Origin: Tritonibacter scottomollicae
GTDB taxonomy: Bacteria > Pseudomonadota > Alphaproteobacteria > Rhodobacterales > Rhodobacteraceae
DNA length: 64,000 bases
Direction: 5' to 3'
NCBI RefSeq assembly: GCF_003003215.1
Contig: NZ_PVUF01000002.1
Span: 372,001-436,000 of the forward strand
The notes beneath the pieces were generated by a model. The model searched no databases, had not been told where the DNA came from, and saw only the letters and a list, made by a program, of their open reading frames with translations. How positions within the stretch are numbered: position 1 is the first letter of the stretch; each line of letters starts with the position of its first letter. Position numbers and translations under genes: made by a program. This document shows, one piece after another, positions 18,414-45,085 of this stretch.

Positions 18414-18511
18414 GGGGTCTTCTCCGCAGGGTGGGTTTCATTATGCTTGCGCCATGATATACGCCCGCGTCCGCTGTGGACAAGCCGATGCCCCATCAGG
18501 AGAGCAATTGC

Positions 18512-19786
18512 ATGAGTGACCGCCCAACATCCGCAACCGATGCCCGCCGCGCGGCGGTAGCGCTTCTCGACAAGGTTCTGGGTGAGGGGCTGTTGCTGTC
18601 CGAGTGTCAGGCGCAGGTTCTGGATAAGCTGGAACCGGCGGACCGCGCCCGGGCGCAGCGGTTGACGCTGGAGGTGCTCCGGTCCTTGGAGCGAGCGGAC
18701 CGGGTGTTGCAGAAACACTTACGCAAACCACCGGCGCTGTTTGTGCGCAATGCCTTGCGTCTGGGCACGGTGGAGCTGTGCTCGGGCGGTGCGGCGCATG
18801 GGGTTGTGAATGACATCGTCAATCTGGTGGCGCGCCATCGCCGCCACGGTCAGCTCAAGGGGCTGGTCAATGCGGTCCTGCGCAAGGTCGCCGAGGAGGG
18901 TCCGGCGGAATGGGCCAAGCTGCGGGTGCCACGCCTGCCGAAATGGCTGCGCAGCCCGCTGGCGCAGGCCTGGGGCAGCGAGGCCATGCTGGGGATCGAG
19001 GCGGCTCATCTGCGGGGGGCGCCGCTGGACCTGAGCGCCAAGCCCGGCGCGGATCTGTCGGCATTGGGCGGCGGGCTGACGCTAACCGGCAGCTTGCGGC
19101 TGGAAGAGGCCGGCCAGGTCTCAGCCTTGCCGGGGTTCGAGCGGGGCGATTGGTGGGTGCAGGATGCTGCGGCAGCACTCCCCGCGCGGATCCTCAATGC
19201 GCAGCCCGGCGAGCGGGTACTTGATCTGTGTGCAGCACCTGGCGGCAAGACCTTGCAGATGGCGGCTTCGGGGGCGGATGTCACGGCGGTGGATATCTCG
19301 GAAGGCCGTCTGGCACGTTTGCAAGAGAACCTGGCGCGCACCGGATTGTCGGCGAATGTGATCGCCGGTGATGTCATGGCGCAGAGCGGGCAATACGATG
19401 CGGTACTGCTGGATGCGCCCTGCTCCGCCACGGGCACCATCCGTCGCCACCCGGATCTGCCCCATGCCAAGGACGGTGCCGGGTTTGGTGCGCTGATCGA
19501 GCTGCAAGCGCAGATGCTGGCGCATGCCTGGACGCTGGTGAAACCCGGTGGCCGCTTGGTCTATTGCACCTGTTCGCTGTTGCCGGATGAAGGCGAGTGT
19601 CAGATCGAGGATGCGTTGGAGATGTTCCCGGAGGCGCGGGTTGGCGATGGCGTCAGGACGTTGGAGGGAATCGATGCAAGCTGGATCACTGAGGAAGGCG
19701 GTCTGCGTCTGCGTCCGGACTACTGGCCGGAGGTCGGCGGCATGGACGGGTTCTACATGGCGGAGCTTGTGAAAGCGGACGTCTAG
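18512..19786 (+). CDS. rsmB: 16S rRNA (cytosine(967)-C5)-methyltransferase-like protein
   Basis: A 424-residue RsmB-type methyltransferase. The N-terminal NusB-like domain covers about residues 5-130 (DARRAAVALLDKVL, AHGVVNDIVNLV). The SAM site is LDLCAAPGGKT. The two catalytic cysteines are in DAPCSATGTIRRHPD and YCTCSLLPDE, the pair typical of m5C RNA methyltransferases. The ATG at 18512 has AGGAG nine bases upstream; other in-frame ATGs at 18476 and 18488 lack this. It starts the plus-strand run that leads to the heparinase-like gene and purH. Confidence 0.92.
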   Translation: MSDRPTSATDARRAAVALLDKVLGEGLLLSECQAQVLDKLEPADRARAQRLTLEVLRSLERADRVLQKHLRKPPALFVRNALRLGTVELCSGGAAHGVVNDIVNLVARHRRHGQLKGLVNAVLRKVAEEGPAEWAKLRVPRLPKWLRSPLAQAWGSEAMLGIEAAHLRGAPLDLSAKPGADLSALGGGLTLTGSLRLEEAGQVSALPGFERGDWWVQDAAAALPARILNAQPGERVLDLCAAPGGKTLQMAASGADVTAVDISEGRLARLQENLARTGLSANVIAGDVMAQSGQYDAVLLDAPCSATGTIRRHPDLPHAKDGAGFGALIELQAQMLAHAWTLVKPGGRLVYCTCSLLPDEGECQIEDALEMFPEARVGDGVRTLEGIDASWITEEGGLRLRPDYWPEVGGMDGFYMAELVKADV

Positions 19787-19813: not shown

Positions 19814-20009
19814 TACCGGGGGAGGGCTCCCGCGCCCGCAGGTGCCTTCCCGGCGGCAAGCCCCCTTGGCGGTCTTGGGCCCGGCCCTTGACCCTCCCAT
19901 GGAGGGTCAAGGGACCCGCCTTGCGGGCCATCCGGCCTGCAAGGCGCCAGGCCCAACGGGAGCGGATCATCTCCGCATGATCCGGCGACGGGCGGGAGCA
20001 TCCCCGACG
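19814..20009 (-). repeat. Structured intergenic repeat, copy A
   Basis: This copy fills most of the 340-base gap between rsmB and the heparinase-like gene. Read on the minus strand it has GTCGGG, an outer arm CTCCCGC (19998-19992), a hairpin with GGATCAT/ATGATCC arms, the block CGCTCCCGTTGGGC, a hairpin with CGCCTTGC/GCAAGGCG arms, a hairpin with CCCTTGACCCT/AGGGTCAAGGG arms, GCCCAA closing against TTGGGC, the block CCGCCAAG, and an outer arm GCGGGAG (19833-19827). The same order and blocks recur at 44160-44338. No coding frame is convincing here. The nature (RNA, mobile, or DNA fold) is unknown. Confidence 0.85.
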
Positions 20010-20127: not shown

Positions 20128-21873
20128 ATGTCCAGATACGATCGAATGGCCAGTCGCGGAACGCGTCTGCTGAACCGCTATACCGCCTGGAAGGCGCGCA
20201 AGCAGCCTGCGGCCACGGGATTCGTGTCGCAGCCGGAGCCGCGCACCATCGGCAGCTTTGCGCGCGGGCGCCAGCTAGTGGCCGGCAACCTGCTGCTTGC
20301 GGGCTACCTGGTCGAGAGCAGTACCACGGGGCTGTGGGATGTCGACGCGCCGGATTTTGCCTTCGAGGCGGAGCGGCAAGGCTGCACCTGGCTCGATGAT
20401 CTGGCAGCCGTCGGCGACATCAAGGCACGTCGCAAGGCGCAGCATTGGGTCTGGGGCTGGATCGACGAGTTTGGCAATGGCACCGGCCCGGGCTGGTCAC
20501 CGGATCTGACCGGACGACGGGTGATTCGATGGATCAACCACGCGCTGTTCCTGCTTAGTGGCCAGGACAAGCCAGCCTCGGACGCCTTTTACCGGTCACT
20601 GTCGCAGCAAACCTGGTTCCTGTCGCAGCGCTGGAAAGGGGCTTCGCCGGGGCTGCCAAGGTTCGAGGCACTCACCGGGCTGATCTATGCCGGGCTGGCG
20701 CTCAAAGGCTGCGAGGAGCTGGCGGACCCGGCGGTGCGGGCATTGGCACAGGATTGCGAAACGCAGATCAATGCCGACGGAGGTCTGCCCACTCGCAACC
20801 CGGAAGAATTGCTCGATGTCTTCACCCTGCTGACCTGGGCGGCGGCGGCCCTGCACGAGGCCGGGCGCTCGGTGCCCCGCGAACATCACGCCGCTCTGGA
20901 CAGGATCGCGCCCACCCTGCGCGCGTTGCGCCATAGCGATGGGGGGCTTGCGCGGTTTCACGGCGGTGGGCGTGGGCAGGAAGGCTGGCTCGATCATGCC
21001 TTGGCGGCCTCACATGTGCCAGCGCGTGCCTTTGATGGATTGGCGATGGGGTTTGCCCGGCTGTCCGCAAGGCGGACTTCGGTGATTGTTGATGCCACCG
21101 TACCGCCGGTGAGCAAAGCGTCCTATAACGGACATGCCTCAACCTTGGCGTTCGAGCTGACTTCTGGTCGGCGTCCGTTGATCGTGAACTGCGGCGCGGG
21201 TGAGAACTTTGGTCTCGAGTGGCGTCGCGCCGGGCGGGCGACACCATCGCATTCTGCCCTCTGTGTCGAAGGGCATTCCAGCGCCCGGCTGGCGCAACCG
21301 CAGAAGGGCACCGGCCATGAATTCCTGATCGAGCCGCCCACTAAGGTGCCGATCGAGCGCGACGACCTTGATGATGGCTACCGGTTTCAGGGCGCTCATG
21401 ATGGTTATGCCCGCCACTTCGGGGTAACTGTCGCCCGCGCATTGGAGCTGTCCGTGGATGGGCGGATGGTTTCGGGCGAGGATATGTTGCTCGCGCTGGA
21501 TGGGGCAGCCAAGAAACGCTTCGACAAGGCGCTGGATTCCGGCGGGCTGCAGGGAATCGGTTATGATTTGCGGTTCCATCTGCACCCGGATGTGGACGCG
21601 GCCCTTGACTTGGGGGGCGCGGCAGTATCCATGGCGCTCAAGAGTGGGGAAATCTGGGTATTCCGTCACGATGGTCAATGCGACCTGAAGCTGGAAACCA
21701 GCGTTTACCTGGAAAAGACCCGCTTGAAGCCGCGTCAATCGCTGCAAATTGTCCTGTCGGGCCGGGCCATTCAATACGCGACCCAGATCCGCTGGACCCT
21801 CAGCAAGGCGCAGGAAACGGCCGTGGCCGTGCGCGATCTGGCCCGCGACGAACCCATGGCCTACGAAGAGTGA
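20128..21873 (+). CDS. Heparinase II/III family protein
   Basis: A 581-residue protein with an alpha-helical N-terminal half (toroid-like, containing FGNGTGPGWSPDLTGRRVIRWINHA) and a C-terminal beta-rich Hepar_II_III domain. That domain includes ASYNGHASTLAFELTSGRRPLIVNCGAG, then PSHSALCVEGHSSA and DDGYRFQGAHDGYARHFGVTVARALEL. Family members cleave uronate-containing polysaccharides. No signal peptide is evident, so the site of action is unclear. The ATG at 20128 (MSRYDRMAS) has GAGGC upstream; the frame is open from 20029 but there overlaps the edge of the repeat region. It lies 24 bases before purH, and the order rsmB-heparinase-purH is, to my knowledge, common in Rhodobacteraceae. Confidence 0.85.
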   Translation: MSRYDRMASRGTRLLNRYTAWKARKQPAATGFVSQPEPRTIGSFARGRQLVAGNLLLAGYLVESSTTGLWDVDAPDFAFEAERQGCTWLDDLAAVGDIKARRKAQHWVWGWIDEFGNGTGPGWSPDLTGRRVIRWINHALFLLSGQDKPASDAFYRSLSQQTWFLSQRWKGASPGLPRFEALTGLIYAGLALKGCEELADPAVRALAQDCETQINADGGLPTRNPEELLDVFTLLTWAAAALHEAGRSVPREHHAALDRIAPTLRALRHSDGGLARFHGGGRGQEGWLDHALAASHVPARAFDGLAMGFARLSARRTSVIVDATVPPVSKASYNGHASTLAFELTSGRRPLIVNCGAGENFGLEWRRAGRATPSHSALCVEGHSSARLAQPQKGTGHEFLIEPPTKVPIERDDLDDGYRFQGAHDGYARHFGVTVARALELSVDGRMVSGEDMLLALDGAAKKRFDKALDSGGLQGIGYDLRFHLHPDVDAALDLGGAAVSMALKSGEIWVFRHDGQCDLKLETSVYLEKTRLKPRQSLQIVLSGRAIQYATQIRWTLSKAQETAVAVRDLARDEPMAYEE

Positions 21874-43892: not shown

Positions 43893-44120
43893 TCAGGCGC
43901 GGTTGTAGCCGCGTTTCAACATCCGGTGGCGATGACGGTCTGCTGCCACCGAGGCTTCGCGCAGGTTGCCGAAGATATTGATGGTCGTTCGCCCCTTGCC
44001 ACCCTTCACGCCCCATTCGCGCAGGAGGGAGACCTCGTCGAAGAGGTTCATCGCGAGCTCGATCCGGTAGAACCGAGGAGGGCGGGTTTCAGCGCGATTA
44101 TAGAGCAGACAGGTGGCCAT
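43893..44120 (-). CDS. Stand-alone WGR-domain protein
   Basis: A 75-residue protein that is almost entirely a WGR domain: RFYRIELAMNLFDEVSLLREWGVKGGKGRTTINIFGNLREA. WGR domains occur in PARP-type enzymes and some bacterial proteins, where they contact nucleic acid or protein. Here the name-giving WGR reads WGV. The C-terminal tail is basic (RHRHRMLKRGYNR). The ATG at 44120 opens directly downstream of the structured repeat copy B. Function unknown. Confidence 0.8.
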   Translation of the reverse strand: MATCLLYNRAETRPPRFYRIELAMNLFDEVSLLREWGVKGGKGRTTINIFGNLREASVAADRHRHRMLKRGYNRA

Positions 44121-44159
44121 ATTGTCTTTTTACGCGAGCCGAATCATCGCCGCAAGAGG

Positions 44160-44338
44160 TCGGGTGTACTCCCGCCCGTCGCCGGAGGAGAAAATCCTCC
44201 GCTCCCGTTGGGCGTGGCGCCGCGCCTGTGGCGCGGCGCTGCCGCTTGCCCCGAATAGGGGCAAGCGGCCCGGCCCAACTCCGCCAAGAGGATTTGCCGC
44301 AGGCAAGGCCTCTGTGGCGGCGGGAGCGCCCCTCCTCC
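44160..44338 (+). repeat. Structured intergenic repeat, copy B
   Basis: Plus-strand order: GTCGGG, outer arm CTCCCGC (44169-44175), hairpin GGAGGA-GAAAA-TCCTCC, block CGCTCCCGTTGGGC, hairpin GCGCCGCGCC/GGCGCGGCGC, hairpin CCGCTTGCCCC/GGGGCAAGCGG, GCCCAA closing against TTGGGC, block CCGCCAAG with a fourth hairpin (CCTCTGTGGCGG side), and outer arm GCGGGAG (44320-44326). It occupies the gap between the response-regulator stop and the WGR start. The block order and spacing match copy A at 19814-20009, inverted. Confidence 0.85.
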
Positions 44339-44365: not shown

Positions 44366-45085
44366 TTAACTCCAGCTGACATCTCCGAGGAAAATATACC
44401 CGGCGCCATAAATCGTCTTTATCAGGCGCGGGTTCTTGGGATCCTCGCGCAGTTTGGTGCGCAGGCGGGAAATGCGCACATCCATTGCCCGGTCAAAACT
44501 GTCCCCGGCCCCGCCGCCTAGTCGTTCCATCATCTGTGCGCGGGAAATCAGCCGCTTTGGGCTTTCCAGAAACAGGCGCAACACTTCTCCTTCGGCGTGG
44601 GAAAAGGCGGTTTCCTCCCCGGCCTCGTCTTCCAGCGCGTAGCGGTCGAAATGCGCGGTCCAGCCTGAAAACTGTGCCCGATCTCCAGACGGCGCCTGCC
44701 CGCCCCGGGGGGCATCGCGCAGGCGTACGCGGATACGGGCGACAACCTCCGCCGGATCAAAGGGTTTGGTGATATAGTCATCGGCGCCGAGCTCCAACCC
44801 AGTGACCCGATCCTGCACTTGCGCCCGACCCGAAATGATAATGACACTGGCCCCCTGTTCCAGCGCCAGCCGGTGCACCAGCGCCAGCCCGTCGGTATCC
44901 GGCAGCGACAGATCCACCAGGCAGACGTCTGGTGTCACCCGTTTCAAGGCAACCTCGAAATCGCGGGCGCGGGAAAAGCTCTGGGTGCGATAGCCGGCGT
45001 CCTCCAGCGTTTCCGTCAGCAGCTGGCGGATCTCCGGCTCGTCATCGAGGATCGTCACGAGAGGGGATTGATTGGCATCACGCAT
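44366..45085 (-). CDS. OmpR-family response regulator
   Basis: A 239-residue response regulator. The receiver domain has the acidic pair in ILDDEP, phospho-acceptor D58 in CLVDLSLPD and the Lys in DDYITKPFDP. The C-terminal winged helix (AHFDRYALEDE ... RAMDVRISRLRTKLREDPKNPRLIKTIYGAGYIF) is the OmpR/PhoB type that binds DNA repeats. Its first bases overlap the end of the hybrid kinase gene by eight bases, so the two are co-translated. Likely targets are the palindromes upstream of the ligase/ABC operon. Confidence 0.93.
   Translation of the reverse strand: MRDANQSPLVTILDDEPEIRQLLTETLEDAGYRTQSFSRARDFEVALKRVTPDVCLVDLSLPDTDGLALVHRLALEQGASVIIISGRAQVQDRVTGLELGADDYITKPFDPAEVVARIRVRLRDAPRGGQAPSGDRAQFSGWTAHFDRYALEDEAGEETAFSHAEGEVLRLFLESPKRLISRAQMMERLGGGAGDSFDRAMDVRISRLRTKLREDPKNPRLIKTIYGAGYIFLGDVSWS

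Follow-up and report, generated by a model that had tools for sequence, protein, structure and literature searches.

REP and BIME elements of Escherichia coli lie at the 3' ends of genes and in convergent regions, occur in alternating orientation, and have a proposed role at the ends of transcription units. Caulobacter CIR repeats are intergenic inverted repeats of alphaproteobacteria, more than 100 bp in length and centred on CcrM GANTC sites. GTAG REPs and REPINs, which are served by a RAYT (TnpA-REP), are extragenic palindromic units that occur in inverted pairs, carry a mismatch inside the stem, and depend on their fold. CGTC-REPs of alphaproteobacteria are defined by a CGTC tag, an 8-9 bp stem that follows the tag directly and starts with A-T pairs, and a 3-nt tail that is mostly CCA; they form head-to-head dimers, lie behind genes and between genes that converge, and have no linked transposase (Di Nocera et al. 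2013, PMC3733652).

Two intergenic sequences in a 64,000-nt stretch of the Tritonibacter scottomollicae genome (the window) are members of a family, so far unlisted, of about 90 repeats rich in hairpins that lie between genes in marine Rhodobacteraceae, mostly a short way past a stop codon. The family shares each of the features just listed for BIME/REP elements, but no sequence relation to these was seen, and it differs in that its unpaired blocks are conserved while its hairpins vary freely. Like CIR repeats, full copies are long intergenic inverted repeats; CIR was rejected as an identity, GANTC being absent from both window copies and occurring in just 4 of the 43 full-length candidates found by regular expression. 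The resemblance to GTAG REPs covers extragenic palindromic units, inverted pairs, an in-stem mismatch and fold dependence, but the unit is a larger mosaic and has no GTAG tag. A RAYT-driven REP (GTAG REP/REPtron) was rejected because the T. scottomollicae genome yielded no match to the Y1 transposase family PF01797 and because the conserved flank is CTCCCGCC-CGTC instead of a GTAG tag. Of 18 congeneric genomes, all of them with the repeat, 16 likewise lack a Y1 transposase.

Copies A and B and the unit that builds them

The first-pass annotation had noted blocks shared in the same order by copy A (minus strand, 19814-20009) and copy B (plus strand, 44160-44338), separated by three hairpins that differ in sequence yet keep their pairing. 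Every one of these blocks and hairpins was recovered at its place and on its strand. The larger closing arms it proposed reappear in the predicted fold of copy B, which pairs both the outer stem and the GTTGGGC/GCCCAAC arm. The features of the two copies, with hairpins lettered hpA to hpD, are as follows.

19814..20009, minus: copy A, full (two-unit) element, between two plus-strand genes, 18476-19786 and 20146-21873
19987..19998, minus: copy A, conserved block 1, CTCCCGCCCGTC
19964..19983, minus: copy A, hpA, GGATCAT...ATGATCC, predicted fold
19951..19962, minus: copy A, conserved block 2, CTCCCGTTGGGC
19918..19945, minus: copy A, hpB, GCCTTGC...GCAAGGC, predicted fold
19885..19913, minus: copy A, hpC, CCCTTGACCCT...AGGGTCAAGGG, predicted fold
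19833..19872, minus: copy A, hpD, compound hairpin in the inverted second unit, less strongly paired than that of copy B
19818..19833, minus: copy A, 3' outer arm, GCGGGAG-CCCTCCCCC
44160..44338, plus: copy B, full (two-unit) element, between two minus-strand genes, with the stop codon of 44366-45085 on the right
44169..44180, plus: copy B, conserved block 1, CTCCCGCCCGTC
44184..44200, plus: copy B, hpA, GGAGGA...TCCTCC, predicted fold
44202..44213, plus: copy B, conserved block 2, CTCCCGTTGGGC
44216..44239, plus: copy B, hpB, GGCGCCGCGCC...GGCGCGGCGC, predicted fold and covariance model
44242..44268, plus: copy B, hpC, CCGCTTGCCCC...GGGGCAAGCGG, predicted fold
44271..44279, plus: copy B, CGGCCCAAC, pairs with GTTGGGC and equals block 2 of the inverted second unit
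44281..44320, plus: copy B, hpD, compound hairpin in the inverted second unit, predicted fold
44319..44332, plus: copy B, 3' outer arm, GGCGGGAG-CGCCCC

The fold predicted for copy B is multi-branched, with an outer stem CTCCCGCC/GGCGGGAG, hpA, the GTTGGGC/GCCCAAC arm around two further hairpins, and a compound hairpin as the fourth. Its energy, -125.6 kcal/mol (z -8.6), was equalled by none of 200 shuffles. Copy A folds with z -4.1; its fourth hairpin is weaker, and there the minimum-energy fold departs from that of copy B. Within the window, the exact 17-mer CTCCCGCCCGTCGCCGG occurs only at these two copies.

Side-by-side reading of the blastn matches of copy B in its own genome brought out a basic unit of about 80 nt: a G-rich start, block 1 (CTCCCGCC-CGTC), the variable hairpin hpA, block 2 (CTCCCGTTGGGC) and the GC-rich hairpin hpB. 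The two conserved blocks, CTCCCGCCCGTC and CTCCCGTTGGGC, are nearly invariant and unpaired, and flank hpA. The first-pass annotation had overlooked both this mosaic of smaller units and the half-size majority: most copies are half elements, made of a single unit. Full copies, about 170-220 bp long, consist of two units head to head, the second inverted and with its own compound hpD; their outer ends, the inverted-repeat arms GCTCCCGCC/GGCGGGAGC, pair with each other, as do the inner GTTGGGC/GCCCAAC. Units can also be joined through their outer ends (locus L016). In form, with inverted-repeat ends, no ORF and dispersed copies, the repeat is MITE-like. No T run follows hpB in the units read, which thus lack the U tract of an intrinsic terminator.

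Details of the unit bear on whether this is simply a plain member of the CGTC-tagged REP super-family of alphaproteobacteria, which we regard as improbable. CGTC does precede hpA in 91 of 163 confident units, and the head-to-head dimers, the 3' location and the missing transposase are as described for that family (PMC3733652). In these 163 units, however, the stem mostly starts 2-5 nt past CGTC and begins with GG, GC, CG or GA, not with an AT start, and the tail ahead of GTTGGGC is CTCCC in 64, with mostly other C-rich tails among the rest, rather than CCA. A unit of two blocks and two hairpins, moreover, exceeds a single 8-9 bp stem by a second block and a second hairpin, and Rhodobacterales are not named in the CGTC-REP description. 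The canonical CGTC-REP was rejected as an identity, since the stem and tail definitions failed and none occurs in 864 kb of the T. scottomollicae genome.

Several neighbouring sequences were seen along the way. Longer full elements (L074, L086, L111, L127, L174, L286) carry an extra inner motif, GGTTGCG...CGCAACCGCGCC, flanking a variable centre of about 35-50 nt, which suggests a third conserved block. Elements at L018 (contig C3 of T. scottomollicae, near 375.1 kb), L027, L097 and L129 have next to them or within them another Rhodobacteraceae repeat, CATCTTT..AAATA(T/C)CTCGGGGG...GAGGGGCAGCGCCCCT; at L018 it stands between hpB and the remainder of the element. At C1:68235-68611 in T. scottomollicae and at L064 in a congener (G015), a conserved stretch of about 250 bp with a palindrome, TTCAGGRGCAGATCTGCCCCTGAAG, separates the two units of an element; a similar palindrome occurs on C1 near 104.45 kb, and the stretch may be the gene of a small RNA or a different repeat. 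Abutting copy B (window 44080-44160), upstream of the minus-strand gene that starts near 44119, is a congener-conserved sequence, CTCTTGC(A/G)GCGGTGATTCGGCTGGCGTAAAAA, that may be the promoter of that gene.

Distribution and position among genes

The likeness of the two copies goes beyond chance. With copy B as query, blastn found 51 places in its own genome at E<=10 and about 30 at E<=0.01, and a covariance model of the unit found about 90 unit places at E<0.01. The same model answered the question of further intergenic copies in related genomes, of which there are many: all 17 congeners carry units, 8-71 each. Beyond the genus the distribution is patchy, with 16 of 120 Rhodobacteraceae (one genome per genus) above a strict cut, and units were found in none of 24 genomes from other alphaproteobacterial families. 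Almost every named match to the exact pattern belongs to the Rhodobacteraceae (Leisingera, Phaeobacter, Ruegeria, Tropicibacter, Epibacterium, Tritonibacter, Tropicimonas, Gemmobacter, Pararhodobacter and others). The pattern scan also matched an Oscillospiraceae MAG (L082) and Roseospirillum (L146), the latter without confirmation by the covariance model. Carriage by phages or plasmids was rejected: phage and viral contigs gave no match, and the only plasmids to do so were two Tritonibacter chromids.

An existing annotation was, like a lack of further copies or a loss of pairing, an outcome that the first-pass annotation had named as refuting its reading, and Rfam supplied none. Neither the copies nor the unit matched at gathering score, matches below threshold being at chance level, and a known RNA family was rejected on that ground. 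No earlier description of the repeat was found in literature that excludes most subscription journals.

Gene context was taken from 864 kb of the T. scottomollicae genome with a simple home-made gene caller; loose regular expressions matched coding DNA too (41 of 105), so the statistics refer to filtered units. None of 43 elements overlaps a gene. Twenty-six of the 43 lie between convergent genes, against 106 of 553 in the background (p 2e-8), and only one lies between divergent genes. Single units are oriented: 36 of 44 have the end of a gene on the side of block 1, usually at a distance of 20-50 nt. T-tailed terminators are rarer at convergent ends that have an element (9/52 versus 40/116, p 0.03). 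REPs in general show a location pattern like this one (PMC3733652).

Orthologous sites and inversion in place

Comparison of orthologous sites shows gain or loss of the element at particular sites from one species to another, and inheritance in place otherwise. The site of copy B is filled in four congeneric genomes, T. scottomollicae included, and empty in 11. That of copy A holds a full element in T. scottomollicae, a half element in three congeners, a remnant in one and nothing in the others. Another site is empty in T. scottomollicae and filled directly after the stop codon in three other genomes, among them Leisingera aquaemixtae and Tritonibacter multivorans. In two congeners, most of the top copies lie at sites orthologous to T. 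scottomollicae copies. Nothing points to recent copying, as the most similar copy elsewhere in the genome is 74% identical over the full length, and no target-site duplication was recognisable in comparison with empty sites that have diverged. Over 11 orthologous sites, identity is 98% in the two blocks, against 61% in neighbouring intergenic DNA and 48% for random sequence. This shows constraint on the blocks, although the comparison is biased to copies good enough for detection, and those in an advanced state of decay would have escaped it.

Full copies also occur inverted in place between species. The element at C3:133074-133208 in T. scottomollicae is 96% identical to its ortholog in genome G005 when one of them is inverted and 62% identical in direct comparison; the flanking genes are colinear (84-89%). 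The six substitutions that remain after inversion form exactly three compensatory pairs. At C1:101197-101322, the element of G005 is inverted and that of G016 is not; in all, inversion was seen at two of the four full-element sites that could be compared. Co-changing arms together with in-place flipping suggest that the DNA strand itself, and not only RNA, folds.

Folding in DNA or RNA and upkeep of the element

Pairing is kept well beyond the two window copies: 102 units show 391 double changes, against 110 in shuffles, with 91.6% paired. The family sits at gene 3' ends and keeps its blocks and its pairing. The first-pass annotation had offered a folded RNA or a fold-dependent mobile or DNA element, and this pair of options stands, although compensatory change alone is no evidence for RNA, and inversions and DNA-type loops favour the DNA side. 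A structured RNA would be expected to covary and to tolerate G.U on the transcribed strand; covariation is strong here and G.U scarce. In hpA the ratio of G.U to A.C is 7:37 in the model alignment and 4:26 with a strand-symmetric stem finder on the CGTC subset, although many of these hpA cases come from a few related sequence types and are not all independent; hpB gives 12:14. The T-tailed terminators of the same genome, read with a like finder, give 27:4 (Fisher p 4e-9 and 1e-3). Nearly all loops have 3-4 nt. Read on the strand that carries block 1 at the 3' end, 53 of 112 tetraloops are GNNA, and just 12 of these are GNRA; the terminators use UNCG and GNRA loops. GNA and GNNA loops form exceptionally stable DNA mini-hairpins (PMC4686876). 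Template switching, for its part, homogenises the arms of inverted repeats and inverts spacers (PMC8604942), and creates and maintains hairpins with instant double changes (PMC8794818). The scarcity of G.U, the DNA-type loops, the in-place inversions and this known mechanism together favour folding and re-matching at the level of DNA. RNA could still play a part, above all RNA of the opposite strand, on which the A.C mismatches of hpA would read as U.G.

A single C.A mismatch (C in the 5' arm, A in the 3' arm) recurs in hpA 3-5 bp from the loop, for example on contig C3 of T. scottomollicae and at L073, L099 and L110, in several sequence types. It resembles the mismatch in REPs recognised by RAYTs.

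The reading we put forward, and give roughly even chances of being right, is a new REP/BIME-like, fold-dependent extragenic DNA repeat family of Rhodobacteraceae, remodelled by template switching, whose blocks are kept by selection at transcription-unit ends. The folding strand would be DNA that replication or transcription exposes as a single strand or cruciform; polymerase switching template between arms would re-match the hairpins and at times flip the spacer or the whole element. The unpaired blocks would be kept through binding by a putative host protein, and the net benefit may lie in marking or insulating transcription-unit ends, a role also proposed for REP/BIME elements. A more specific version is offered tentatively, as less likely than this general form: a host-kept element that folds as single-stranded DNA, whose CTCCCG blocks a putative non-Y1 Rhodobacteraceae protein would recognise on the folded strand at transcription-unit ends, while template switching in replication would re-match the arms and flip the element, so giving strong RNA-like covariation at the level of DNA.

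Some points count against the general reading. Template switching accounts for arm matching without selection on the fold, and the sense position behind stop codons, with fewer T-tailed terminators, fits an RNA terminator or stabiliser equally well. A cis-acting RNA, in which the unit is co-transcribed with the upstream gene as a structured 3' end (a Rho-assisted terminator or a barrier to 3'-5' exonucleases) and symmetrical full copies serve both convergent genes, would explain the tight 20-50 nt spacing after stop codons in sense orientation, the avoidance of divergent regions, the partial replacement of T-tailed terminators, the constraint at orthologous sites and the very stable predicted RNA fold. 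It fits less well with stems that lack the G.U excess of the genome's own terminators, loops other than GNRA or UNCG, the missing U tract and patchiness across genera, and we rate its chances as clearly below even. Possible rather than probable, and partly compatible with the DNA-repeat reading, is a non-autonomous mobile element (MITE- or REPIN-like) with its transposase in trans, whose position behind genes would reflect purging from genes and promoters, not benefit. Presence and absence at orthologous sites, patchy distribution, inverted-repeat ends and head-to-head dimers are what such an element would leave, but the Y1 transposase is missing from most of the congeneric genomes, near-identical recent copies and target duplications were not seen (the latter against diverged empty sites), the blocks are conserved at inherited sites, and phages and viral contigs are free of the repeat, with only the two chromids among plasmids. 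A MITE would also be expected to have an autonomous relative; in a search that was not exhaustive, the match lists contained no convincing outward-facing pair of units around a transposase-sized gap, and spacings of 2-5 kb looked accidental.

Through this finding a well-studied family of marine bacteria gains a large repeat family that had not been listed. The repeat is also a natural example of very strong covariation that is possibly better explained by matching of DNA arms and inversion than by RNA, and it bears both on reading covariation as proof of a functional RNA and on how REPs without a transposase persist.
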